Source: Lachnoanaerobaculum sp. ICM7 (GTDB lineage Bacteria > Bacillota > Clostridia > Lachnospirales > Lachnospiraceae). Taken from it: a stretch of DNA of 64,000 bases. Position 1 is the stretch's first letter. Each line of letters starts with the position of its first letter. Under the pieces are notes generated by a model that saw only the letters and a program-made list of their open reading frames with translations, was not told the origin of the DNA and ran no database searches. The position numbers and the translations under genes were made by a program. The DNA lies in contig NZ_ALJL01000036.1 in assembly GCF_000287675.1 (NCBI RefSeq), positions 124,001-188,000 on the forward strand, given 5' to 3'. This document shows, piece by piece, positions 4,991 to 55,528 of this stretch.

Positions 4991-5016
4991 AAAAGGACAC
5001 ATAAGTGTCCTTTTTT
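4989..5016. terminator. Bidirectional terminator between livF and the DUF4364 gene
   Basis: AAAAAAGGACAC and GTGTCCTTTTTT form a perfect 12-bp stem around ATAA. The A tract on one side and T tract on the other let it end both the rightward liv transcript and the leftward DUF4364 transcript, whose stop codon lies at its edge. Confidence 0.85.
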
Positions 5017-5542
5017 ATTCCATGCCTCCAAGAAGCCTTTTCATAATATACTGATAAATATCCTGACTGCATGAGCGCCAATTGTTTTTCATAATATTGG
5101 CCTGTTCTTCATCAGGGGAATTTATTTCTATATTTATAAGTGGGGTTTTTCCCTCCAAAACTTCACAATGTACAATGAGATCGTTTCCCGGAAGCTTATA
5201 ATATTCTGCTGTAGTGGAAACTTCATTTCTCATACGGAATTTATTTGTCTGTATAAACTCGTTGATATCTGTAATGATAGCCGGAGAGATCTGTTTTTCA
5301 AAAAAAGAGAGGGCTTCTTTGCCTTCTTTTGTCATTTCATATCTGGAATTGTTGTTTATATTCTCGACACTCAGTAAGTTTGATTCCAAAAGCTCTGAAA
5401 GAGCCTGTTGGACTATAAAGTATGTAGTATATTCTTTACTGACAAAAAAGTCGGATATATTTGAGTTTGTAAGTGGGAACTTAACTTGTTTTAACATATA
5501 TAGTATCATTAACTTATATAAAGTCATCGGTTCTGAGAGCAT
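5015..5542 (-). CDS. DUF4364 family protein
   Basis: The start is placed at the ATG for MLSEPMTLYKLM because an AGGAGGT site lies just upstream of it. A 22-residue longer reading frame exists but has no ribosome binding site. The 175-residue protein matches the DUF4364 family of Clostridia: an N-terminal winged-helix-like half (FPLTNSNISDFFVSKEYTTYF, then ALSELLESNLL) and a C-terminal alpha/beta part. The N-terminal half resembles DNA-binding helices, so a regulatory role is plausible but not shown. It stands alone on the minus strand between two plus-strand operons. Confidence 0.75.
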   Translation of the reverse strand: MLSEPMTLYKLMILYMLKQVKFPLTNSNISDFFVSKEYTTYFIVQQALSELLESNLLSVENINNNSRYEMTKEGKEALSFFEKQISPAIITDINEFIQTNKFRMRNEVSTTAEYYKLPGNDLIVHCEVLEGKTPLINIEINSPDEEQANIMKNNWRSCSQDIYQYIMKRLLGGME

Positions 5543-5719
5543 CGTCGGACCTCCTGTGTAATATAAAGATTTTACAACAAATGGGATATTATGTAAAGTG
5601 TAATACATTACCGGTTATTTTATTCGATTGCCTGCGGATTACTAACTGCCGATTAGATATAGAAATTCATTATTATTTATGATAAAATGTAGGTTATGGT
5701 TTATGGAAGAGGTGTATAA

Positions 5720-8700
5720 ATGAGAGAGCGAATCAATCGTTTGGCAAAAGGGATTATTGAAGAAGAATTACCTATATTGGTCTGTGAGCCGGATAATATA
5801 GAACTGCCTATAAAGATGGATGAAGCCGTTCGCTTTGAAATAGAGGTACGAAGTGACAACAAAGTACCGTTTAGAGGAGTGGCATATTCCGACAATATAA
5901 GAGTAAGAGTGGTCGATGCAACTTTTGGCGGAATAAAGAACAAAGTTGTACTTGAGATCAACTCGAAGAATTTGAGCGGAGAAGAAAAGATAGAGGGTAT
6001 TATAACTTTGGTAACAAATGCCGGAGAAAGAGATATACCCTATACTTTTTATATAAAAAATACCGATACTGTACTTGTGCTTGAGTCATTAAAGACAGTG
6101 GACGATTTTATGGTCATTGCAAAGGAAGACATAAATATTGCATTGGCTATTTTTATGTATAAAGACTTTTGTAAGTCGGGCTTTATGAAGGACCTGAGAT
6201 ATCAAAAGATTTACGAAGTACTTAATAAGGGTAATAACTTCAGATTAAACCTTGAAAATTTCCTGCAGGCTGTGGGAAATAAAGAAGCAGTGAATTTTTT
6301 GCTTGAATCGGATTCGCTTTATTTAAATACAGTAGAAGAAGATAAAGTTTATACCGTCAAAGTTCACAAAGAAAACTGGGGTTTGCTTGATATTGACGTA
6401 TCAACAAATGCAGGTTTTATTAAATTAAATACGGATAAAATTAAAAACGAAAACTTTGAAGATAATACTTTTGAACTGGGATTTACTATAGATTCCGAAC
6501 TCTTGCAAGACAGGAAAAATGTTGCGAGTATAAGGTTTTGTAACGGTTTAAATGAAAAGTATCTTGAAGTTGTAATAAATAAAAATCTTGAAAAAGAATA
6601 TCAAAGAGAAGCAAGAATATTTGAAAGAAAACAGTGGATCAGTTATGTAAAGCTTAGAGTTGAGCATGAACTCTGCAGCGATAAAATCGAAAAAAATGAG
6701 ATTTTATTTAAAATGCTTGCGGTACTGGACAGATTACAGGCAAGTACATACAGGAGTTTTTTGGTAAAGCTTTTAAAGGCTGAAATATACCTGATGCAGG
6801 GAGATAAGGCTACGGCAAAGTCTATTATCAACAGTCTGGATTCAAAAATAAAAGAGAACAGGCACGAACTTAGAGATGAGTATCTGATTTTAGAATACCT
6901 GGATACATATATGTATCCGGATGGCGAAAAGATGAGAGATCTTACAAAGCTTATTAAGGATTTATATAAGAAATATCATTCAAACATTGAATTTATGCTT
7001 GTATTAAATCTTGATGAAAGTCTTGCAGACAACCCGGCGGAAAGACAGAAGTTTTTGAAGAGAGCTTTTGAGCTTGGTGACAGGTCAAAAATATTGATGA
7101 TGGAATATGCTCTTTTACTTTGCAAGAATCCACATCTTTTGACAAGCTGTACAAGATTTGAAGTGTTGGCACTCAGCTTCGGTATAAGAAATAATCTTAT
7201 ATCGGTTAGTCTTTCGGAGAAAATACTCTCCGTTGTAAGAGAGACAAAGAAAATTAACGGAGCTATATTAAATATTCTTCTTTCAATATACAATGCATTG
7301 CCAGGCAATGAACTTCTTATAGATATATGTGAGATTTTTATAAAAGGTAATGTAAGAAAAAAGTATGTAAATGCATGGTACGAAAGATGTATTGAAAAGG
7401 GATTGCCGGTGGAAGGCATATATGAGTATTTTGTTTACTCGCTTCCCGAAAAATATGATTTACCTATACCTGAATCTGTGCTGAAGCATTTTGAAAGAAT
7501 AAACTCGATGGCTGATGACTTTAAGGTGAAGATATTTGAAAATATCGTAGAGTTTTATCCGCATAACAGTGAAATATACAGAGAGTTTATAAAGAGAATA
7601 AAGATTTTTACCATTGATAATGCAATGAAATTGAAAATGGATGATCATCTTATAAATATTTATTCCGGAATTCTTGAAGATGATGATATAGATGAAAGAT
7701 TGGCAAAAATCATTCCGTTTTTAATGAACTCATATGATGTGAGAGTGCCTGAAGGTAAAGCGGGTTCTATAGTGGTTGTATATCCGGAGCTGAACGGTGA
7801 AAAGAAATATGAACTTGTAAATAACAGGGCTTTTGTAGCACTGTATTCGGAAAATGCAATTATCCTTGCAGAGGATTGTGAGGGCAACAGATATTATCCA
7901 AAAAATATGACTGTAGATAAGATATTCCATATGCAAAATCTTATAGACAGGTCTTATGAGTTGGATAAAAATCATGATATGCACAGGCTTGAGATGCTTG
8001 GAAAGATTGCAAAGAGCAGTGAAATCAGTGATGAAGATATAGTTTTAATAGAAGGTGTATTGGATGAAATAGACATTGATTCAAGATTTAAAAATATACT
8101 TTTATCAAAGCTTATTGAACATTTATGGAAAGCTTCAGAGAAGGAAGAAGAGATTAACTTTAAGCTTCTATATAAGACGGCAGAGATGAATTTGGATGAA
8201 GACAATATCTTTATGTATTGTGATACATTGATGAATATCGGAAATGTAAAAGAGGCAATAGATGTAGTCAAATTCTTCGGAGTCGATAACTTCAAAAAAG
8301 ATGAATTACTTAAGCTGATTATTAAGGCAATTGACGATGAAGCATTTAATCAAAATAAAATACTTGCTTTGATGGCTTTTAATCTTTATAAAGATGAAAA
8401 GTACACAGATAAAACTTTGGAATTTATTGCAAAGGTATACAACGGAAAAACACAAAATATGTTGGATTGTCTGAAATTATGTGTTGAGAAAAATATAGAA
8501 ACATATGATTTTGAAGAAAGATTGCTTATACAAATGCTTTTCTCAAATCAGACAGCAGATTTGGATGAGGCTTTTAGAATTTATACAGAGAGAAAAAGAG
8601 TTACGGATATAATCATAAGAGCATATTTTACTGTAAAGAGTGATTTATTCTTCATGAATGATGAAAATATAAAAGACAATATATTTGAGTATCTGGAAGA

Positions 8701-9277
8701 CGGACTCAGTGATGTTGACGATATAAAGGAGTTCCCGAATATTTATATGCTGGCATTGTCAAAGTATTATTCAAAGAAGGATAATCTTAACTTTAAGCAG
8801 ACAAGACTATGTGAGCAGATAGTAAATAATCTTTGTGATATGGGAATGGTATTTTCGTATTTTAAAAATCTGTCAAAGTTTGTACCTGTTGAAAGAGATA
8901 TACTGGAATCTGCTTTTGTTGAATACAAGGCAAAGAAAGATTCGGTTATATTGAAGTCAAGAATTTTTCCTTTAAATGATGATTTTATTGAGGAGGAGTT
9001 TCCTAATATCTATAAAAATATATTTGTTAAATATAAGAAGATTTTTTCTGACGAGATATGGGAATATCAGATTCTTGAAAATGAAGACGGTGATATGAAA
9101 GTTTCAGTAAATGACTGTGTTCAATTCAGTAAAGGGGATAATGCCGGAGAGAGCAGGTTTATTCTTATAAATGATATAGCGGAACTGCCAAAAGACAAAG
9201 AAAAAGAAATCAAGGAAAAATTGACCGAGTTTGTGTACAAAGACGAGTTGGTAGCGAATTTATTTACACTGATATAA
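5720..9277 (+). CDS. DUF5717 family protein, very large, unknown function
   Basis: The 1185-residue protein has no signal peptide or membrane segment, so it is probably cytoplasmic. The start MRERINRLAKGIIEEELPIL and a beta-rich N-terminal third (two sandwich-like stretches around residues 30-115 and 210-290) match my memory of the DUF5717 family of Lachnospiraceae. The rest is mainly helical with repeat-like segments (for example LLKAEIYLMQGDKATAKSII), suggesting TPR-like solenoids. No catalytic motif is recognised. It leads a cluster with a DUF5716 protein and a TPR-like protein, so a shared complex is likely. The ATG has an AGAGG site. Confidence 0.7.
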   Translation: MRERINRLAKGIIEEELPILVCEPDNIELPIKMDEAVRFEIEVRSDNKVPFRGVAYSDNIRVRVVDATFGGIKNKVVLEINSKNLSGEEKIEGIITLVTNAGERDIPYTFYIKNTDTVLVLESLKTVDDFMVIAKEDINIALAIFMYKDFCKSGFMKDLRYQKIYEVLNKGNNFRLNLENFLQAVGNKEAVNFLLESDSLYLNTVEEDKVYTVKVHKENWGLLDIDVSTNAGFIKLNTDKIKNENFEDNTFELGFTIDSELLQDRKNVASIRFCNGLNEKYLEVVINKNLEKEYQREARIFERKQWISYVKLRVEHELCSDKIEKNEILFKMLAVLDRLQASTYRSFLVKLLKAEIYLMQGDKATAKSIINSLDSKIKENRHELRDEYLILEYLDTYMYPDGEKMRDLTKLIKDLYKKYHSNIEFMLVLNLDESLADNPAERQKFLKRAFELGDRSKILMMEYALLLCKNPHLLTSCTRFEVLALSFGIRNNLISVSLSEKILSVVRETKKINGAILNILLSIYNALPGNELLIDICEIFIKGNVRKKYVNAWYERCIEKGLPVEGIYEYFVYSLPEKYDLPIPESVLKHFERINSMADDFKVKIFENIVEFYPHNSEIYREFIKRIKIFTIDNAMKLKMDDHLINIYSGILEDDDIDERLAKIIPFLMNSYDVRVPEGKAGSIVVVYPELNGEKKYELVNNRAFVALYSENAIILAEDCEGNRYYPKNMTVDKIFHMQNLIDRSYELDKNHDMHRLEMLGKIAKSSEISDEDIVLIEGVLDEIDIDSRFKNILLSKLIEHLWKASEKEEEINFKLLYKTAEMNLDEDNIFMYCDTLMNIGNVKEAIDVVKFFGVDNFKKDELLKLIIKAIDDEAFNQNKILALMAFNLYKDEKYTDKTLEFIAKVYNGKTQNMLDCLKLCVEKNIETYDFEERLLIQMLFSNQTADLDEAFRIYTERKRVTDIIIRAYFTVKSDLFFMNDENIKDNIFEYLEDGLSDVDDIKEFPNIYMLALSKYYSKKDNLNFKQTRLCEQIVNNLCDMGMVFSYFKNLSKFVPVERDILESAFVEYKAKKDSVILKSRIFPLNDDFIEEEFPNIYKNIFVKYKKIFSDEIWEYQILENEDGDMKVSVNDCVQFSKGDNAGESRFILINDIAELPKDKEKEIKEKLTEFVYKDELVANLFTLI

Positions 9278-9338
9278 AAAATGAAAGGAATGTAAGTTTT
9301 ATATTTACATTTGATATTTATATAAAATGGGAGATACG

Positions 9339-10568
9339 ATGAATCCAAAGGTACTTGGAATCGCTTTATCGGATATAAGTACAAATCTTATATTTTACCC
9401 CGATGATGAAGCATTAATTTTCCCCACTGTTATAAGCAAAAAAAAGGGTGAAGATGCCTGGGTAGTGGGTGAAGATGCTTATGCTTTGGCATTGGACGGA
9501 AAAGGTATAATTACCGATAAATTATTAAAATTGACAAGAAAAGACGGTATAGCAACCATTGACGGTACAAGATATGAAGGAAAAGAAATATTGAAAATTT
9601 ACTTCAGAGAAATAATAAATGCCGGAATGGAAAAATTATATAAGGAAAAGCCTGATGAAGTAGTTGTAGCTATGTCAGGTTTGGAAGAAGACATAGTCGG
9701 TGATATAAGGGCGGCCTTTGTAGGACTTGGTTATCAACCGAACCATATACATATAATCAGCAAGGAAGAAAGCTTTATCTATTTTGTTCTTTCATTAAAA
9801 AAAGATATATGGAACAATAAAGTGGGAATGTACGATCTTTCTGATGTAAGTCTTACATACTATGAAATGCTTGTAAACAGAAATTCAAGAAAACTGCTTG
9901 TTAATGCGGAGTCTGAAAATATGGATGAGGCTTTTAACCTGCAGATACTTAATAATCCGTCAGGAGCCAAGCTTGCAGATAAGATTTTGACTTCAGTTGC
10001 CGAGAAAGTAATGGATAAGAAAAAATTTTCATCTATTTTTCTCACAGGGCAGGTGTTTGCAGAACATGAGTGGGCAGACGGATTTATAAGTTATCTGTGT
10101 TCAAGAGGTAAGGTATATCTTGATACAAATATTTTCGCAAAAGGTGCGGCATTTAAAGGTGTTGACCTTGCGAGTGAGAACTCCATATATAATTTAACTG
10201 CAATTTGTGAAGGAAGACTGAGGTCGGATGTTTATATAAATGTAGAGAACAACGGTAAAGACGGAAAGATATACCTTGCAAAGGCCGGAGACTTTTGGGA
10301 TGAACCCGATACTGAACTTTTAATGATACCTGATGAGAAGGAAGTAATTGATATCAGTGTGGCAGGTATTGACGGTAAGGTCAAGAAAAACATTCCTATT
10401 GTACTGGACTTTCTACCTAAAAGGCCTATAAAGACAAGAAGATTTTATTTCAGAACAAAATTTTTGGACGATAAAATCATGAATGTCGAAATAGAGGATG
10501 CAGGCTTTGGAGATATGTATCCGCCTACCGATGTAAAGAGAAATATCGAGGTAAATATATGGGATTAA
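9339..10568 (+). CDS. DUF5716 family protein with an actin/Hsp70-like fold
   Basis: I chose the ATG at 9339 (MNPKVLGIAL) because GGGAG precedes it. An in-frame ATG at 9327 would add four residues. The 409-residue protein starts with an alternating strand pattern (LGIALSDISTNLIFY). It later has GMYDLSDVSLTYYEM and IFLTGQVF at positions where Hsp70/actin ATPases carry phosphate 1, phosphate 2 and adenosine motifs. The classical glycines and acidic residues are largely missing, so ATP hydrolysis is doubtful. The DUF5716 name is from memory of gene pairs with DUF5717. The fold call is inference. Confidence 0.6.
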   Translation: MNPKVLGIALSDISTNLIFYPDDEALIFPTVISKKKGEDAWVVGEDAYALALDGKGIITDKLLKLTRKDGIATIDGTRYEGKEILKIYFREIINAGMEKLYKEKPDEVVVAMSGLEEDIVGDIRAAFVGLGYQPNHIHIISKEESFIYFVLSLKKDIWNNKVGMYDLSDVSLTYYEMLVNRNSRKLLVNAESENMDEAFNLQILNNPSGAKLADKILTSVAEKVMDKKKFSSIFLTGQVFAEHEWADGFISYLCSRGKVYLDTNIFAKGAAFKGVDLASENSIYNLTAICEGRLRSDVYINVENNGKDGKIYLAKAGDFWDEPDTELLMIPDEKEVIDISVAGIDGKVKKNIPIVLDFLPKRPIKTRRFYFRTKFLDDKIMNVEIEDAGFGDMYPPTDVKRNIEVNIWD

Positions 10569-11377
10569 TACTATGTGAAGCCTTAAAAGTAAAAAAGCCT
10601 TTCAATATAGAAGTATTATCACTGAACATACACAGTTATGAAGAGTTGTGCTATATAATATTTGAGAATCCCATTTTAGTCACCGAGGGAATAGTAAGTG
10701 ATGCTTTGGTTGAATTTATAAGGGATGAATTGAATTTAGAAGTCTTAGCCGATAATGTGAAAAGAAAAATGTCCAACGGAACGGCTGATGAGGATATTTT
10801 GGTATATATCATTGATTCATGCAGTCTGTACAATAATGCAGAGACAATAATTTTCAGAAATGCCATGGGAAAGATAAAGAAAATGGCGGTACATGAAGTT
10901 GCCAAGCAAAGAGCGGACTATATGTTTTATATAGGAAAGTATGATTTGGCAAAAAAGTACTATCTGGAAATCCTTGATATGGATACAAAGGCTGAGAACG
11001 GTTTTATAGGAAGTGTGTATCATAATCTCGGTGTTATTTATGCAAATCTTTTTTTGTATGAAGAGGCTTCGGATGCGTTGAAAAAGTCATATGAACTTAC
11101 AAATGATGATGTGATTTTGATGGAAATATATTTTCTTAAGAGAATATTTATATCATCATATGAGGAAGAAAACGATGAGGAAATGGGTAAACTCTTAAAA
11201 ACCGATTTGGCAGGTGAAGCCAAGAAAGCTTTTGATATAGCGTTAGAAGGCGTTGGTGAAAGTGAAAGAATAAAGAATGTAAATTCAATATTCGATATGG
11301 AAGATACGACAAGGAAGAAAAAAGTTTTAGGTGATTATATCGCTGATTTAAAAGCGGATTACAGAAATATGAAATAA
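10559..11377 (+). CDS. TPR-like helical protein of unknown function
   Basis: The 272-residue protein overlaps the preceding gene by 10 bases and has a GAGG site in its end, so the two are translationally coupled. Residues about 115-185 read as tandem tetratricopeptide helices: DYMFYIGKYDLAKKYYLEIL, then YHNLGVIYANLFLYEEASDAL. No membrane segment or enzyme motif is visible. It belongs to the DUF5717-DUF5716 set and probably acts as a scaffold or partner for them. The family is not recognised by name. Confidence 0.65.
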   Translation: MGLILCEALKVKKPFNIEVLSLNIHSYEELCYIIFENPILVTEGIVSDALVEFIRDELNLEVLADNVKRKMSNGTADEDILVYIIDSCSLYNNAETIIFRNAMGKIKKMAVHEVAKQRADYMFYIGKYDLAKKYYLEILDMDTKAENGFIGSVYHNLGVIYANLFLYEEASDALKKSYELTNDDVILMEIYFLKRIFISSYEEENDEEMGKLLKTDLAGEAKKAFDIALEGVGESERIKNVNSIFDMEDTTRKKKVLGDYIADLKADYRNMK

Positions 11378-11388
11378 GGCAGGTAGAT

Positions 11389-14031
11389 ATGAAAGAATTG
11401 GAAAAGACATACAGCCCTGAAAAAATAGAGGGCAGAATATATAAAAAATGGTTGGAAGAAAAGTACTTCCATGCAAAGGTAAATAAGGATAAAAAGCCTT
11501 TTACAATTATAATGCCGCCGCCAAATATCACAGGTCAGCTGCATATGGGACATGCACTTGATAATACTATGCAGGATATCCTGATAAGATATAAGAGAAT
11601 GGCCGGATATGAGGCGCTTTGGCAGCCGGGAACGGACCATGCGGCTATCGCTACAGAGGTAAAGGTTATTGAAAAGCTTAAAGCCGAGGGCAAGGATAAG
11701 CACGAGCTTGGAAGAGAAGGCTTTTTAAAGGAAGCCTGGGCATGGAGAAATGATTACGGTACAAGAATAATCAATCAGCTTCAAAGACTTGGTTCATCTG
11801 CAGACTGGGACAGAGAAAGATTTACCATGGATGAACAGGGACAAAAGGCTGTAAAGGAAGTTTTCCTCAGATTATATGAAAAAGGGTATATTTACAAAGG
11901 TAGCAGGATTATAAACTGGTGTCCTGTTTGTAAAACATCTATCTCAGATGCCGAGGTTGAACATATTGAGATGGACGGCAATTTCTGGCATATAAAGTAT
12001 CCTGTTGTAGGAGAAGAAGGAAAATTTGTCGAGATTGCCACAACAAGGCCTGAGACACTTCTTGGAGATACTGCGGTTGCGGTAAATCCGTTGGATGAAA
12101 GATATAAAGATATCATAGGTAAAAAGCTGGTACTGCCATTGGTAGGAAGAGAAATACCTGTAGTAGCTGATGAATATGTTGACAAAGAGTTCGGAACAGG
12201 CTGTGTTAAGATAACACCTGCACATGACCCTAACGACTTTGAGGTAGGAAAAAGACATAATCTGCCTGAAATCAATATAATGCATGATGATGCGACTATT
12301 GATATGCCGGGAAGCAAGTATGACGGACTTGACAGATATGAGGCAAGAAAACTTATAGTAAATGATCTAAAAGAAGCAGGTCTCTTGGTAAAGGTGGTTC
12401 CTCACAGCCACAATGTAGGTAGACATGACAGATGTAAGACAGTTGTAGAGCCGCTTATAAAGCCGCAATGGTTTGTAGCTATGAACGAGATGGCAAAGCC
12501 TGCAATAAAGGCGATTGAGACGGGAGAACTTAAGTTTGTACCTGAAAGCTATGCAAAGACGTATTTACATTGGCTTGAAAATATAAGAGACTGGTGTATT
12601 TCAAGACAGCTTTGGTGGGGACATCAGATACCTGCATATACATGTGAAAAATGCGGTGAGATAACGGTTGCAAGAGAAAAACCTGAAAGCTGTCCGAAAT
12701 GCGGATGCCATGAGCTTGTACAGGACGAGGATACTTTGGATACTTGGTTTTCATCAGCACTTTGGCCTTTCTCAACACTGGGATGGCCTGAGGATACTGA
12801 GGAAATGAAGTACTTCTATCCCACGGATGTTCTTGTAACAGGTTATGATATTATATTCTTCTGGGTAGTAAGAATGGTGTTCTCAGGTTATGAGCAGACC
12901 GGAAAATCACCTTTCCATACTGTTCTTATACATGGACTTGTAAGAGATTCCGAGGGTAGAAAGATGAGTAAATCTCTCGGAAACGGTATCGATCCGCTTG
13001 AGGTAATAGACAAGTATGGTGCGGATGCGCTTAGAATGATGCTTATTACAGGAAATGCACCTGGAAATGATATGAGATTCTACTATGAGAGAGTGGAAAG
13101 TGCCAGAAACTTTGCAAATAAGATCTGGAATGCCGCAAGACTTATCATGATGAACATAGGTGAGGACAAGCCGGGTAAAATAGACAATTCAAAGCTTATG
13201 CTTTCAGATAAGTGGATACTTTCAAAGGCAAACAAACTTATAAAGGAAGTTACAACAAATCTGGATAAATTTGAACTTGGTATAGCACTTTCAAAGATAT
13301 ACGACTTTGCATGGGAAGAGTTCTGTGACTGGTATATCGAGATGGTAAAGGTAAGACTTTGGAATAAGGAAGACGAAAGTAGAGAAACTGCACTTGCCGT
13401 ACTTATATATGTTCTTAACAACATACTTAAGCTTTTACATCCTTTTATGCCTTTTATCACAGAGGAAATATATTGTACCGTAAATGAAGATGTCAAGAGT
13501 ATAATGATTGAGCCTTGGCCTGTAGAAAATCCCGAGTACAATTTTGAGGATGATGAAAATAAAGCCGAGCTTATAAAAGAAGCCGTAAGAGCAATAAGAA
13601 ATGTAAGAGCATCTATGAATGTTCCTCCTTCACATAAGGCAAAGGGAATTGTCGTAAGTGAAAGCGAAAAGATAAGAGATACTTTTGAAAGTGCCGGAGA
13701 TTTCTTTAAGCAGCTTGCAGGACTTGATAAGCTTATAATAGATTCGGATGACAGTACTGTTGAGAAAGACTCCGTAAGAGTTGCAATACCGAATGCATCC
13801 ATATGTTTACCTTTAAAAGAGCTTGTAGATATTGAAAAAGAAGTTGAAAGACTTAAAAAAGAAGAAAAGAAGCTTATCGGTGAGGTGGCCAGATCGACAG
13901 GTATGCTTTCAAACGAGAAGTTTGTAAGCAAGGCTCCTCAGGCAAAAATAGATGAAGAAAAGAAAAAGCTTGAAAACTATGAGCAGATGCTTTCACAGGT
14001 AAGAGAGCAGCTTGCAAGATTAGCCGACTGA
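11389..14031 (+). CDS. valS: Valyl-tRNA synthetase
   Basis: The 880-residue class I synthetase charges tRNA-Val. It has the HIGH-type motif in PPNITGQLHMGHALDNT (about residue 45), the editing domain (TTRPETLLGDTAVAVNP), a zinc-like CEKCGEITVAREKPESCPKCG insert, KMSKSLGNGIDPLEVID, an anticodon-binding domain and the C-terminal coiled-coil arm typical of ValRS. It starts 11 bases after the TPR-like gene, so no T-box leader precedes it, unlike many Firmicute valS genes. It is followed by folC with one base between stop and start. Confidence 0.97.
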   Translation: MKELEKTYSPEKIEGRIYKKWLEEKYFHAKVNKDKKPFTIIMPPPNITGQLHMGHALDNTMQDILIRYKRMAGYEALWQPGTDHAAIATEVKVIEKLKAEGKDKHELGREGFLKEAWAWRNDYGTRIINQLQRLGSSADWDRERFTMDEQGQKAVKEVFLRLYEKGYIYKGSRIINWCPVCKTSISDAEVEHIEMDGNFWHIKYPVVGEEGKFVEIATTRPETLLGDTAVAVNPLDERYKDIIGKKLVLPLVGREIPVVADEYVDKEFGTGCVKITPAHDPNDFEVGKRHNLPEINIMHDDATIDMPGSKYDGLDRYEARKLIVNDLKEAGLLVKVVPHSHNVGRHDRCKTVVEPLIKPQWFVAMNEMAKPAIKAIETGELKFVPESYAKTYLHWLENIRDWCISRQLWWGHQIPAYTCEKCGEITVAREKPESCPKCGCHELVQDEDTLDTWFSSALWPFSTLGWPEDTEEMKYFYPTDVLVTGYDIIFFWVVRMVFSGYEQTGKSPFHTVLIHGLVRDSEGRKMSKSLGNGIDPLEVIDKYGADALRMMLITGNAPGNDMRFYYERVESARNFANKIWNAARLIMMNIGEDKPGKIDNSKLMLSDKWILSKANKLIKEVTTNLDKFELGIALSKIYDFAWEEFCDWYIEMVKVRLWNKEDESRETALAVLIYVLNNILKLLHPFMPFITEEIYCTVNEDVKSIMIEPWPVENPEYNFEDDENKAELIKEAVRAIRNVRASMNVPPSHKAKGIVVSESEKIRDTFESAGDFFKQLAGLDKLIIDSDDSTVEKDSVRVAIPNASICLPLKELVDIEKEVERLKKEEKKLIGEVARSTGMLSNEKFVSKAPQAKIDEEKKKLENYEQMLSQVREQLARLAD

Positions 14032-15373: not shown

Positions 15374-16711
15374 ATGAAGAAAAACAGACGTCTGGAACAG
15401 ATATCAAACGGTTATTATAATTTGGGATTGTCTCTTGCAAAGGAAAGGAATTTATCTTCCGCATTGAATGCGTTAAGCATATCTTTGGGATTGAATAAGA
15501 AAAATACCGATGCCAGAAATCTATACGGACTTATACAGTTTGAAATGGGCGAAGAGACCAAGGCTTTGATTTCATGGGTTATAAGTATAAATATTAATCC
15601 TATAAACAATCCGGCACAGAATTATTTGCAAAAATTGAGAAATAAATCCGCTTACCTGGAAAAATCACAGGATGCCATTTCAAAATATAATAAGGCGATT
15701 TCTCAAATAAAGACTGTAAATTATGATATGGCAAGGATAACATTAAAGCAGGCTGTAGATATAAGACCGCATTTTGTAAAGGCAATGCTCGCACTGGCAC
15801 TTCTCGATATCAGAGAAGGAAAATCCAGTGAGGCAAAAAAGCTTTTGGATAATGTGCTTTCAATCGACAGATTCAATACAAAGGCTATCACTTATCTTGA
15901 AGAGATGAAACCTTTGACTGAAAAAAAAGCAAGGAAAGAAAAATTAAGTGTTATAGGCAGTCCCGTAAAGAAGGAAAAAACTGTAGAAAATGCAAATAAC
16001 GGTATGCCTGTAACCGAGATATATAAGAATTATTCGGGAATGTTTACAGCTATCAATGTAGGAATAGGATTGATAGTAGGTGCCTGTGCAATGGTATTTT
16101 TATATATGCCTACTATGAAGGTAGCATTAAATAACGCACATAATAAAGAAATTGTAGAAATATCACAACAACTTAATGATGTAAATTTATCCATAGAAAC
16201 TCTGAAGAGTGAAAATGAAGGATTGAACGAACAGGTAAATAAACTTACAGAAGTAAATAACACATCAACAGAGAATATGAACTATAAACTTTTGCAGTAT
16301 GTTTATTTCTTAGGTCTTATAAAAGAGTACAATACAAAAAATTATACAAGGGCTGCCGAGATATTCTCAAATCTGGATGTAGGTCAGCTTACTGATGTTG
16401 ACAACGGGTTGGGGATATCCGTAACAGGCACATTTGCCGAAATGGCACCTAAGATGAGAGAAGAGGGACCTAAACTGTTACTTAAAGTTGCGGACGGACT
16501 TAACAGATCCGGTGATTTTGCCGGAGCCATAGGCTATTATGACGCCGCTCTTAGAATATCTCCGGATTATGTGGAAGCCAAGTATAAGAAAGCTTTGGCA
16601 TACAAGACTATGGGTGATGTTGATACTGCAAATAATCTGTTTACAGAAATTATTACAAATTATCCTGATGACAGGTTTGCAAATGAATCAAAGAAAGAAA
16701 GAGGTTATTGA
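15374..16711 (+). CDS. Membrane-anchored TPR protein
   Basis: The 445-residue protein has N-terminal tetratricopeptide repeats (residues about 12-180, for example NGYYNLGLSLAKERNLSSAL), one membrane helix at about 223-246 (AINVGIGLIVGACAMVFLYM), a coiled coil at about 255-300, and C-terminal TPR repeats at about 375-435 (LNRSGDFAGAIGYYDAALRI). The arrangement suggests an inner TPR domain and an outer TPR domain tied across the membrane, possibly a cell-envelope scaffold. The stop overlaps the start of the next gene. Confidence 0.75.
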   Translation: MKKNRRLEQISNGYYNLGLSLAKERNLSSALNALSISLGLNKKNTDARNLYGLIQFEMGEETKALISWVISININPINNPAQNYLQKLRNKSAYLEKSQDAISKYNKAISQIKTVNYDMARITLKQAVDIRPHFVKAMLALALLDIREGKSSEAKKLLDNVLSIDRFNTKAITYLEEMKPLTEKKARKEKLSVIGSPVKKEKTVENANNGMPVTEIYKNYSGMFTAINVGIGLIVGACAMVFLYMPTMKVALNNAHNKEIVEISQQLNDVNLSIETLKSENEGLNEQVNKLTEVNNTSTENMNYKLLQYVYFLGLIKEYNTKNYTRAAEIFSNLDVGQLTDVDNGLGISVTGTFAEMAPKMREEGPKLLLKVADGLNRSGDFAGAIGYYDAALRISPDYVEAKYKKALAYKTMGDVDTANNLFTEIITNYPDDRFANESKKERGY

Positions 16712-51979: not shown

Positions 51980-52171
51980 CTTGTTTGAATCAAGTGAAGT
52001 GTAGTTGAAGGAAATCTGTTGAAAGCAATACTTCATTTTACCGAATAAGTAATAATTTAGGCAACTTCAAATCGATTAAAAAAAACTATTTTAAAGGTTA
52101 AGAGTAGACAAAAATTGTCCACTCTTTTTTGCAAACTCAATTTATCAATAAATGAAATGAGGGAATGTAAA

Positions 52172-52342
52172 ATGAAATATTTTGAGGTTGAGTTAGAAAA
52201 TCCTGATGAATTTTTAAAACTACAAACAGAAGATTTTGTGAAAGCTAATCGCTTGCTACTAAGGAAGATAATCCAGAGCGTTACAGTCTATGAAGAAAAC
52301 TTCGTCATATCCTTTAAATCTGGCATCGAATTGGAAGTATGA
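52172..52342 (+). CDS. Small protein resembling the tail of a serine recombinase (possible remnant)
   Basis: The 56-residue frame starts at ATG 52172 with GAGGG upstream. Its end, LLRKIIQSVTVYEENFVISF followed by a short KSGIELE tail, resembles the last strand pair of large serine recombinases (V...V.F.SG.E). It could be a leftover of the recombinase that moved the neighbouring element, or an independent small gene. Only the C-terminal similarity supports the call. Confidence 0.45.
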   Translation: MKYFEVELENPDEFLKLQTEDFVKANRLLLRKIIQSVTVYEENFVISFKSGIELEV

Positions 52343-52364
52343 GTCTCATTCCATAACTTTTATA

Positions 52365-52393
52365 TTGAACATATCATCTTGTTGTGTTATACT
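52365..52393 (+). promoter_or_regulatory. Promoter of the macrolide efflux operon
   Basis: TTGAAC at 52365-52370 and TATACT at 52388-52393 are 17 bases apart and lie 40 bases before the leader peptide start. Confidence 0.75.
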
Positions 52394-52433
52394 ATAAATT
52401 GATATAAACAAAGATGTAGGAGGAACCGAAACT

Positions 52434-52460
52434 ATGACAGCCTCAATGCGTTTAAGATAA
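52434..52460 (+). CDS. Macrolide efflux leader peptide MTASMRLR
   Basis: The ATG at 52434 follows AGGAGG and encodes MTASMRLR and a stop. This is the leader peptide known from mef operons of streptococci. Ribosomes stalled by macrolides on it prevent formation of the terminator hairpin just downstream, so efflux genes are expressed when drug is present. The sequence is intact, so induction is expected to work. Confidence 0.85.
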   Translation: MTASMRLR

Positions 52461-52470
52461 GCTGGCAATA

Positions 52471-52507
52471 AAAAAAGCAGAATCTATACCCGATGATAGG
52501 CTTTTTT
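52471..52507 (+). terminator. Macrolide-responsive attenuator hairpin
   Basis: AAAAAAGC pairs with GCTTTTTT, with an inner CTAT/ATAG pairing, directly behind the leader peptide. This arrangement is the transcription attenuator described for mef-type operons. Confidence 0.75.
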
Positions 52508-52621
52508 GTTGTGCTTATTTATACGATATTGAGCATTCATTAGTTACGGTGAGGATATTGGTTATTTAACTATACCTTTATTTAACTATGTCTTTAATAT
52601 GAATGTTTCCAAATTGTATGT

Positions 52622-52665
52622 ATGCAGACCAAAAGCCACATTGTGGGGTTTGGCCTGCATTTTTT
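52622..52665 (+). terminator. Second terminator-like hairpin before mef
   Basis: ATGCAG-CCAAA-CCACA pairs with TGTGG-TTTGG-CTGCAT around a short loop and ends in six T. It lies between the attenuator and the mef ribosome binding site, giving a second chance of premature stop. Confidence 0.65.
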
Positions 52666-52727
52666 ATTGCCTAGAATGCTATTCAAAATAGAAATTCAAG
52701 CAAAATAATATGCAGGAGATAATATAA

Positions 52728-53945
52728 ATGGAAAAATACAACAATTGGAAACGAAAATTTTATGCAATATGGGCAGGGCAAGCAGTATCATTAATCACTA
52801 GTGCCATCCTGCAAATGGCGATTATTTTTTACCTTACAGAAAAAACAGGATCTGCGATGGTCTTGTCTATGGCTTCATTAGTAGGTTTTTTACCCTATGC
52901 GATTTTGGGACCTGCCATTGGTGTGCTAGTGGATCGTCATGATAGGAAGAAGATAATGATTGGTGCCGATTTAATTATCGCAGCAGCTGGTGCAGTGCTT
53001 GCTATTGTTGCATTCTGTATGGAGCTACCTGTCTGGATGATTATGATAGTATTGTTTATCCGTAGCATTGGAACAGCTTTTCATACCCCAGCACTCAATG
53101 CGGTTACACCACTTTTAGTACCAGAAGAACAGCTAACGAAATGCGCAGGCTATAGTCAGTCTTTGCAGTCTATAAGCTATATTGTTAGTCCGGCAGTTGC
53201 AGCACTCTTATACTCCGTTTGGGATTTAAATGCTATTATTGCCATCGACGTATTGGGTGCTGTGATTGCATCTATTACGGTAGCAATTGTACGTATACCT
53301 AAGCTGGGTAATCAAGTGCAAAGTTTAGAACCAAATTTCATAAGGGAGATGAAAGAAGGAGTTGTGGTTCTGAGACAAAACAAAGGATTGTTTGCCTTAT
53401 TACTCTTAGGAACACTATATACTTTTGTTTATATGCCAATCAATGCACTATTTCCTTTAATAAGCATGGAACACTTTAATGGAACGCCTGTGCATATTTC
53501 TATTACGGAAATTTCCTTTGCATTTGGGATGCTAGCAGGAGGCTTATTATTAGGAAGATTAGGGGGCTTCGAAAAGCATGTATTACTAATAACAAGTTCA
53601 TTTTTTATAATGGGGACCAGTTTAGCCGTTTCGGGAATACTTCCTCCAAATGGATTTGTAATATTCGTAGTTTGCTGTGCAATAATGGGGCTTTCGGTGC
53701 CATTTTATAGCGGTGTGCAAACAGCTCTTTTTCAGGAGAAAATTAAGCCTGAATATTTAGGACGTGTATTTTCTTTGATCGGAAGTATCATGTCACTTGC
53801 TATGCCAATTGGGTTAATTCTTTCTGGATTCTTTGCTGATAAAATCGGTGTAAATCATTGGTTTTTACTATCAGGTATTTTAATTATTGGCATTGCTATA
53901 GTTTGCCAAATGATAACTGAGGTTAGAAAATTAGATTTAAAATAA
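52728..53945 (+). CDS. mef(A): Macrolide efflux MFS transporter Mef(A)
   Basis: The 405-residue major facilitator protein exports 14- and 15-membered macrolides. Twelve membrane helices, the start MEKYNNWKRKFYAIWAGQAV and the DRHDRKK loop between helices 2 and 3 match Mef proteins. Sequence details such as KRKFYAIW are closer to my memory of Mef(A) than of Mef(E), but allele naming needs alignment. It has CGT arginine codons unlike the AGA-rich core genes, a sign of recent transfer from streptococci. A GGAGATAAT site precedes the ATG. It is followed by msr(D). Confidence 0.93.
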   Translation: MEKYNNWKRKFYAIWAGQAVSLITSAILQMAIIFYLTEKTGSAMVLSMASLVGFLPYAILGPAIGVLVDRHDRKKIMIGADLIIAAAGAVLAIVAFCMELPVWMIMIVLFIRSIGTAFHTPALNAVTPLLVPEEQLTKCAGYSQSLQSISYIVSPAVAALLYSVWDLNAIIAIDVLGAVIASITVAIVRIPKLGNQVQSLEPNFIREMKEGVVVLRQNKGLFALLLLGTLYTFVYMPINALFPLISMEHFNGTPVHISITEISFAFGMLAGGLLLGRLGGFEKHVLLITSSFFIMGTSLAVSGILPPNGFVIFVVCCAIMGLSVPFYSGVQTALFQEKIKPEYLGRVFSLIGSIMSLAMPIGLILSGFFADKIGVNHWFLLSGILIIGIAIVCQMITEVRKLDLK

Positions 53946-53965
53946 ACAATATTGGAGGAATATTT

Positions 53966-53986
53966 ATGTATCTTATTTTCATGTAA
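53966..53986 (+). CDS. msrDL: msr(D) leader peptide MYLIFM
   Basis: The ATG at 53966, behind TTGGAGGAA, encodes MYLIFM and a stop. This hexapeptide is the known macrolide-sensing leader of msr(D), on which the ribosome stalls with erythromycin and so allows read-through into msr(D). The sequence is unaltered here. Confidence 0.85.
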   Translation: MYLIFM

Positions 53987-53997
53987 CTCTTCCTGCT

Positions 53998-54045
53998 AAA
54001 ATCGCAGGGTTTTCCCTGCATACAAGCAAATGAAAGCATGCGATT
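53998..54045 (+). promoter_or_regulatory. Attenuator structure before msr(D)
   Basis: GCAGGGTTTTCCCTGC at 54004-54019 forms a short hairpin. AATCGCA (53999-54005) can instead pair with TGCGATT (54039-54045), giving alternative folds as expected for a stalled-ribosome switch. The pairing scheme is my reading of the sequence. Confidence 0.55.
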
Positions 54046-54064
54046 ATAGACAGGAGGAAATGTT

Positions 54065-55528
54065 ATGGAATTAATATTAAAAGCAAAAGACATTCGTGTG
54101 GAATTCAAAGGACGCGATGTTTTAGATATAAATGAATTAGAAGTATATGATTATGACCGTATTGGTTTAGTAGGAGCAAATGGTGCTGGAAAAAGCACTT
54201 TACTCAGGGTACTTTTAGGAGAATTAACTCCCCCAGGATGTAAAATGAATCGTCTGGGTGAACTTGCCTATATTCCCCAGTTGGACGAAGTAACTCTGCA
54301 GGAGGAAAAAGATTTTGCACTTGTAGGCAAGCTAGGTGTTGAGCAATTAAATATACAGACTATGAGCGGTGGTGAAGAAACAAGGCTTAAAATAGCACAG
54401 GCCTTATCGGCACAGGTTCATGGTATTTTAGCGGATGAACCTACGAGCCATTTAGACCGTGAAGGAATTGATTTTCTAATAGGACAGCTAAAATATTTTA
54501 CAGGTGCACTGTTAGTTATTAGCCATGACCGCTATTTTCTTGATGAAATAGTAGATAAAATATGGGAACTGAAAGATGGCAAAATCACTGAGTATTGGGG
54601 AAACTATTCTGATTATCTTCGTCAGAAAGAGGAAGAACGTAAGAGCCAAGCTGCAGAATACGAACAATTTATTGCGGAACGTGCCCGATTGGAAAGGGCT
54701 GCGGAGGAAAAGCGAAAACAGGCTCGTAAAATAGAACAGAAGGCAAAAGGTTCTTCAAAGAAAAAAAGTACTGAAGACGGAGGGCGTTTAGCTCATCAAA
54801 AATCAATAGGAAGTAAGGAAAAAAAGATGTATAATGCTGCTAAAACCCTAGAGCACAGGATTGCGGCCTTAGGAAAAGTAGAAGCTCCGGAAGGCATTCG
54901 CAGAATTCGTTTCAGGCAAAGTAAAGCATTGGAGCTCCATAATCCATACCCTATAGTCGGTGCAGAAATTAATAAAGTATTTGGGGATAAGGCTCTGTTT
55001 GAAAATGCATCTTTTCAAATTCCGTTAGGAGCAAAAGTGGCGTTAACTGGTGGTAATGGAATCGGAAAAACAACTTTAATCCAAATGATCTTAAACCATG
55101 AAGAAGGAATTTCTATTTCGCCTAAGGCAAAAATAGGTTACTTTGCACAGAATGGTTACAAGTACAACAGTAATCAGAATGTTATGGAGTTTATGCAGAA
55201 GGATTGTGACTACAATATATCAGAAATTCGTTCAGTGCTAGCATCTATGGGGTTCAAACAGAACGATATTGGAAAAAGTTTATCTGTTTTAAGCGGTGGA
55301 GAAATTATAAAATTGTTGCTTGCTAAAATGCTCATGGGTAGATATAACATCCTAATAATGGATGAACCCAGTAACTTCCTTGACATACCAAGTTTAGAGG
55401 CTTTGGAAATACTAATGAAGGAGTACACCGGAACTATCGTGTTTATCACCCACGATAAACGATTACTCGAAAATGTAGCAGATGTAGTTTATGAAATTAG
55501 AGATAAGAAAATAAATCTGAAACATTAA
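54065..55528 (+). CDS. msr(D): ABC-F ribosomal protection protein Msr(D)
   Basis: The 487-residue soluble protein has two ABC ATPase domains without membrane parts. It has Walker [10 protein letters not shown] and GGNGIGKTT, signatures MSGGEETRL and LSGGEIIKL, and a long charged linker (about 185-260, with [17 protein letters not shown]) that reaches into the ribosome. It dislodges macrolides from the ribosome. Full length and intact motifs indicate function. GGAGG precedes the ATG. It works together with Mef(A). Confidence 0.93.

Follow-up and report, generated by a model that had tools for sequence, protein, structure and literature searches.

A lid-less pseudo-Hsp70 and two repeat proteins of Lachnospiraceae, apparently the reduced form of a multi-Hsp70 locus

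What is the role of three genes without assigned function that stand side by side in nearly every genome of a bacterial family? The question is raised by a stretch of 64,000 nucleotides from Lachnoanaerobaculum sp. ICM7 (Lachnospiraceae; contig NZ_ALJL01000036.1, positions 124,001 to 188,000), here called the window, in which three open reading frames (ORFs) on the forward strand encode a DUF5717 protein, a DUF5716 protein and a tetratricopeptide repeat (TPR) protein (Table 1). The initial annotation of this sequence had described the three genes as packed together before valS and had suggested that they form a specific Hsp70-like machine of Lachnospiraceae. The packing is confirmed: the DUF5716 and TPR genes overlap by 10 bases, and valS (named from its sequence, without a family search) starts at 11389, directly after the TPR gene. 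The Hsp70-like core with its large repeat scaffolds is likewise real and co-conserved; the Hsp70-like protein of the window, however, carries no ATPase motifs.

The DUF5716 protein is a true homologue of Hsp70, with a two-lobed nucleotide-binding domain (NBD) and the beta part of the substrate-binding domain (SBD-beta). A search of the PDB with the single window sequence returned noise only, and Pfam assigns residues 112-407 only, to PF18980 (DUF5716_C, E 2.8e-76). A profile built from 24 Lachnospiraceae DUF5716 proteins alone matched DnaK in the PDB with an E value of 1.5e-7; five more chains of DnaK came at E ≤2e-6, and the best chain under any other name had an E value of 0.085. The AlphaFold2 model (mean predicted local distance difference test score, pLDDT, 80; predicted template modelling score, pTM, 0.74) has DnaK as its top Foldseek matches (E 1.2e-18), and in VIA-align Ssz1 comes first (Z 22.2, root mean square deviation, rmsd, 3.4 over 267 residues) with DnaK chains within 1. 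Thus, the protein shows what defines the Hsp70 superfamily, an actin-like two-lobed NBD followed by SBD-beta with homology in sequence, and the degenerate actin/Hsp70-like pattern noticed in the initial annotation is genuine.

At the same time it lacks the structural and sequence features of a functional Hsp70 ATPase, namely the phosphate-1 and phosphate-2 loops, the catalytic lysine and glutamate and the lid. With the DnaK of the window's own genome as reference, both phosphate loops of the window protein are degenerate (Table 1), and the T11/T12 positions of phosphate-1 are changed across the 24 DUF5716 proteins. At the positions that we take to be K70 and E171 of DnaK, 20 of the 24 have leucine, valine or a gap and 23 of the 24 have histidine, arginine, tyrosine, lysine or phenylalanine, respectively. 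Lobe II of the NBD is cut to about half, since the part corresponding to DnaK 177-306 (129 residues) comprises 45-64 residues in DUF5716, approximately 70 fewer. The alpha-helical lid (SBD-alpha) is lost: 11-22 residues remain beyond the lid column in all 24. SBD-beta, which carries the DxGFG motif, belongs to the best-kept parts. Since the ATPase motifs are gone, the window DUF5716 on its own is a pseudo-chaperone and no motor.

The origin of this protein becomes clear outside Lachnospiraceae, where at least 11 other families of the order have a homologous locus of up to eight genes. The system is therefore not limited to Lachnospiraceae, the family to which the initial annotation had assigned it. 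In its fullest form the locus comprises, in this order, a DUF5717 N-part (~390 amino acids, aa), a DUF5717 C-part (~900 aa), Hsp70 a (~559 aa), a GrpE-like protein (~560-650 aa), Hsp70 b (~520 aa), c (~546 aa) and d (~693 aa), and a TPR protein (~387 aa). The ATP motifs are intact in a, c and d, and b mostly lacks the phosphate-2 motif. In one genome, Pfam gives the following matches: a is assigned to HSP70 (6e-78), d to HSP70 (8e-92) and vWA (7e-10), c to HSP70 (1.6e-63) and DUF5716_C (1.3e-12), and b to both DUF5716_C (2e-33) and HSP70 (2e-14). None of these Hsp70s has a lid; a, b and c extend 9-22 residues past the lid column versus 131-147 in DnaK, and in d the place of the lid is taken by a vWA region (204-210 residues), with DTT[GS]SM in 8 of 8.

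The GrpE C-terminal domain (PF01025) was found above cut-off in all three GrpE-like proteins tested (1e-14 to 6e-8), with a weak match to GrpE in the PDB (E 0.005). The protein is oversized, its model having 621 positions versus frames of ~180-260 aa for most ordinary GrpE matches. Among the matches listed for its profile, those above 100 bits came from 73 of the 392 genomes of the order and from 11 families; none of those listed for the window's family exceeded 100 bits, and the weak ones there were mostly frames about as long as an ordinary GrpE. With a DNA pattern for the GrpE-like C-terminus, 57 named loci were located, all with a GrpE-like ORF, including Defluviitalea phaphyphila Alg1 (L153) and metagenome-assembled genomes labelled Defluviitaleaceae and Candidatus Epulonipiscium. 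These are 8-kb stretches, from which the completeness of the gene set is not readable; Hsp70 b was the next gene downstream of the GrpE-like gene in 43 of the 55 stretches that include that next gene.

The ancestor of DUF5716 is Hsp70 b of this multi-Hsp70 operon, which was itself already degenerate. In profile comparisons (hhalign) it matched b at 8e-59 and c at 1.7e-26. In an unrooted IQ-TREE phylogeny with 62 rows, the 24 DUF5716 proteins lie on one side of a branch with support 100/98, the b copy of a locus from another family (L031) joins them at 100/100, and nine other b rows are adjacent to this group, followed by c. By this descent, the window block derives from a dedicated multi-Hsp70 machine, in a reduced form that apparently has no ATPase. 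The L031 locus (G039:C25:32000-50000) still has a-, c- and d-type genes next to its DUF5716-like b; its d is split into two ORFs, and its GrpE-like and TPR genes are shortened. It is apparently an eight-gene locus in decay, and may be an intermediate or an assembly error. The simplest reading of these data is a stepwise decay. Catalysis would have disappeared from b first; later, in the line leading to Lachnospiraceae, a, c, d and the GrpE-like gene would have dropped out of the locus, the two DUF5717 genes merged into one and the TPR protein become shorter. That the changes ran in this direction is inferred.

The three genes that remain are conserved together. Profile searches detected PF18980 in 47 of 61 genomes of relatives, with a single copy in each of 36 of the 37 genomes of the window's family and mostly two or three matches in each of 11 of the 24 from other families of the order. 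The DUF5717 profile likewise found 47 positive genomes, and the presence of the two families agreed in 59 of 61 (both in 46, neither in 13). Among the 36 family genomes with DUF5716, 29 loci (window included) were read at length, and at 27 of these the DUF5717, DUF5716 and TPR genes follow one another on the same strand or are fused, which excludes a chance arrangement; gene calls come from a simple ORF script, and start sites are uncertain. The exceptions are a DUF5716 gene standing alone in a 67%-complete genome (L061) and a locus at a contig end (L066). At one locus (L063) the script placed a small ORF on the opposite strand between two of the three genes, and at another (L045) DUF5716 and the TPR protein form a natural fusion in a single open frame of 713 residues. 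The proposal of a shared machine depended on an actin/Hsp70-like fold and on co-conserved genes, and it survives on both counts. Compared with congeners, the block genes have ratios of nonsynonymous to synonymous substitution (dN/dS) of 0.05-0.20 (valS 0.04-0.05), with dS saturated in several pairs, which indicates purifying selection. Outside the genus, the identity of DUF5716 is low (19-39%).

In a wider sample of the class, DUF5717 was found in the window's family only, besides three weak short matches (G160, G103 and G191), which we take as chance matches to the solenoid; just three other families of the order are represented among the matches listed for that sample, so that it says little on them. 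The C-terminal motif pattern of DUF5716 had no match in viral contigs, and a phage or viral origin was rejected on this ground.

An additional gene at 13 loci, c4, encodes a protein of ~380-500 aa and often lies directly 3′ of the TPR gene (e.g., L047:10479-11702). It occurs in short and long forms of the locus and is absent from the window. All five copies scanned have two adjacent hydrophobic stretches, with flanks that look coiled-coil-like by eye.

The partner proteins point to a scaffold. Pfam matches the DUF5717 protein to PF18984 (E 1.2e-176) and PF18983 (E 1.3e-59), a PDB search with its sequence gave no clear relative, and a hydropathy scan gave no transmembrane stretch. Its AlphaFold2 model (18 alignment rows, pLDDT 72, pTM 0.39) agrees with the beta-sandwich plus solenoid architecture initially proposed, with sandwiches at residues ~20-113 and 199-287, helical repeats at ~290-1060 that include a beta insert, and beta structure at the C-terminus. 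Of the two sandwiches, the first resembles the PapD/MSP/ASH fold (VIA-align Z 11.6, rmsd 2.1-2.8 over 93-97 residues). The modelled solenoid is similar to many helical repeats, large scaffolds included, and is scarcely covered by the VIA-align rows. On these models, DUF5717 is probably a scaffold of PapD/ASH-like sandwiches and an alpha-solenoid. The TPR assignment of the third protein is secure (TPR_8, E 1.1e-6), and none of the three proteins has a match in NCBIfam.

The explanation that we favour, and consider probable, is that DUF5717 and the TPR protein form a cytoplasmic scaffold which holds the pseudo-Hsp70, as the remnant of a multi-Hsp70 machine. In the full form, ATP-type Hsp70s would cycle on this scaffold and be reset by the GrpE-like protein, and the whole would serve to load, fold or remodel a single client or assembly dedicated to it. 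The Lachnospiraceae locus no longer has the motors and the exchange factor; here scaffold and pseudo-Hsp70 might either hold the client without ATP or serve as an adaptor and borrow DnaK from the housekeeping set, in the way that Ssz1 and Hsp110, atypical Hsp70s of eukaryotes, work beside a canonical Hsp70. Of this picture, the homology, the degeneration, the co-conservation and the reduction are seen in the data, and the physical complex, the handling of a client and the use of DnaK are inferred from them. The window genome has one HSP70 match at E ≤1e-20, its DnaK, and a single DnaJ match, which lies beside dnaK on another contig; some other genomes of the family have extra Hsp70s elsewhere (matches to HSP70). 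A wider proposal, that four lid-less Hsp70s, a long GrpE-type factor, the ASH/PapD-solenoid scaffold and the TPR protein make up one complex of an order-specific machine for a dedicated client, of which the Lachnospiraceae form is a reduced version without its own ATPase, is more tentative, and we give it slightly less than an even chance.

Several observations count against the favoured explanation. A glycine of the adenosine loop and often the phosphate-1 aspartate are retained in the b-type and DUF5716 proteins; of the 24 DUF5716 proteins, all have the glycine and 17 the aspartate (not the window protein), so that, judged by these residues, members of the DUF5716/b-type family may bind nucleotide. 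Hsp70 b contributed 45 rows to the alignment given to AlphaFold2 for DUF5716 and thereby biases the model towards an Hsp70 fold, so that the model is not independent of the homology claim; the PDB search with the 24-member profile made no use of those rows. Two genomes, 67-80% complete, have one gene of the pair each (G025 DUF5716 alone, G041 DUF5717 without detectable DUF5716), and a 93%-complete genome (G034) has neither, which means that the block can be lost. Some named loci of the eight-gene type have other ORFs interposed between the genes. No J-domain protein was found among the scanned proteins of the window block and the eight-gene locus, so a canonical Hsp70 cycle would need a DnaJ from elsewhere.

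A static structural scaffold without chaperone function, a cytoplasmic or membrane-tethered framework left after loss of the ATP-type Hsp70s in which the Hsp70 fold serves as a building block and c4 as a membrane anchor, would account for the loss of the ATPase motifs and for a DUF5716 sequence that diverges outside the genus while gene order is kept. It also fits the large scaffolds among the matches of the DUF5717 solenoid and sandwich, as well as the paired hydrophobic stretches of c4. The window has no c4, however, and the good preservation of SBD-beta, DxGFG motif included, suggests a retained binding function, so we regard this reading as rather unlikely. Still less probable is a ribosome-linked folding or translation factor, an adaptor like Ssz1 of the ribosome-associated complex (RAC) that would suit the position upstream of valS. 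Ssz1 is the top structural match, tied with DnaK, and genes of the valS cluster follow shortly downstream at several loci, including two from other families (L031, L036), but no J-domain partner was recognised at the locus, many family loci have no valS-cluster gene near the block, and a neighbour alone is weak evidence. A conflict or defence system is suggested by HSP70, GrpE, beta-sandwich/TPR and vWA parts that recur in those GAP1-N2 GTPase systems which come with HSP70 and GrpE (PMC7159879). This reading is very improbable and as a GAP1-N2 system was rejected, given that GAP1-N2 was absent from all 23 genomes tested, that the scanned locus genes included no recognised GTPase, and that the locus is single-copy, syntenic and present in 36 of 37 family genomes where conflict systems are patchy. 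An obligatory role in flagella or sporulation, traits against which the initial annotation had suggested a comparison, was rejected as well, as among the 36 family genomes with DUF5716 flagellin is absent from 20, SpoVA from 12 and both from nine, the window's genus included.

Comparison with known systems sets the locus apart. It shares NBD and SBD-beta, the ATP motifs of a, c and d in the eight-gene form and the GrpE C-terminal domain with the DnaK-GrpE pair, but its Hsp70s are lid-less, d carries vWA, the GrpE domain sits on a protein of ~560-650 aa, scaffold genes are present, no J protein was recognised, and the window form has no ATPase motifs. Ssz1 and Hsp110 are likewise atypical proteins of Hsp70 fold, and the DUF5716 model matches the fold of RAC Ssz1 as well as that of DnaK; in contrast to RAC, the locus has no Zuo1-like J protein, and lobe II of DUF5716 is ~70 residues shorter. 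The window proteins are members of Pfam PF18980, PF18984 and PF18983, whose returned descriptions give no function, Hsp70 relation or eight-gene locus.

The sole literature mention of DUF5716/DUF5717 found was unrelated by its title, and a search for Hsp70/GrpE/vWA operons returned nothing on the eight-gene locus. The nearest published theme is set out by Kaur et al. (2020; PMC7159879), namely neighbourhoods of GAP1-N2 that contain HSP70 and GrpE. That paper describes HSP70 with GrpE, a second HSP70-type gene and a beta-rich repeat protein with TPR, as seen here; our locus differs in having no GAP1-N2, four Hsp70s of which one is fused to vWA, and a conserved core position instead of variable effector loci. 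A 2024 paper on DnaK duplication (PMC11019930) makes, in the passages searched, no mention of Clostridia, Lachnospiraceae or von Willebrand. The multi-Hsp70 machine is thus apparently undescribed in the literature searched.

If the wider proposal of an order-specific machine is true, the block would be a natural case of a chaperone machine that dropped its motors and kept its adaptor. The stepwise loss of catalysis offers a natural experiment on an Hsp70 scaffold without ATP. Three genes without assigned function, near universal in the sampled genomes of the family, become a testable system of a pseudo-Hsp70 on a scaffold; relatives such as Defluviitalea phaphyphila Alg1 have a fuller version, presumably driven by ATP. 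Sets of lid-less Hsp70s with their own GrpE-like protein would broaden the view of bacterial Hsp70 networks.

Table 1. Features of the three-gene block, in window positions.
Feature	Position	Strand	Description
DUF5717 gene	5720..9277	+	1185 aa; PF18984 and PF18983; two N-terminal beta-sandwiches, alpha-solenoid, small beta insert, beta C-terminus (model)
First beta-sandwich of DUF5717	5768..6061	+	residues 17-114; PapD/MSP/ASH-like; VIA-align Z 11.6
DUF5716 gene	9327..10568	+	413 aa; pseudo-Hsp70 without a lid; orthologous to Hsp70 b in the eight-gene locus
Degenerate phosphate-1 loop of DUF5716	9357..9383	+	GIALSDIST versus GIDLGTTNS in DnaK
Degenerate phosphate-2 loop of DUF5716	9834..9857	+	DLSDVSLT versus DLGGGTFD in DnaK
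C-terminal beta domain of DUF5716	10206..10565	+	SBD-beta counterpart; aligned with DnaK chains past the NBD; DxGFG..YP motif common to Hsp70 b and c
TPR gene	10559..11377	+	272 aa; conserved N-terminal SxEELCY region, common to the longer TPR protein of the eight-gene locus

Further genes of the window were noted in passing. A gene for a DUF4364 (PF14277) winged-helix protein (5015-5608, reverse strand) is oriented divergently to DUF5717; in the loci read, it is found at this place in the window's genus and one other genus only. A second TPR protein of 445 aa (15374-16711, forward strand), encoded 3′ of a folC-like gene, has one hydrophobic stretch near residue 230 (by eye) and matches the locus TPR profile, probably via generic TPR repeats only. 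A macrolide resistance element (52437-55528, forward strand) consists of an MFS gene and an ABC-F-like gene, with Rfam RF02862 'Enterococcus sRNA 1300' (275 bits) 5′ of both. Positions 52100-53000 share 99.6% identity with a plasmid record of Streptococcus agalactiae that carries the annotation mef(A), which makes a recent transfer likely.

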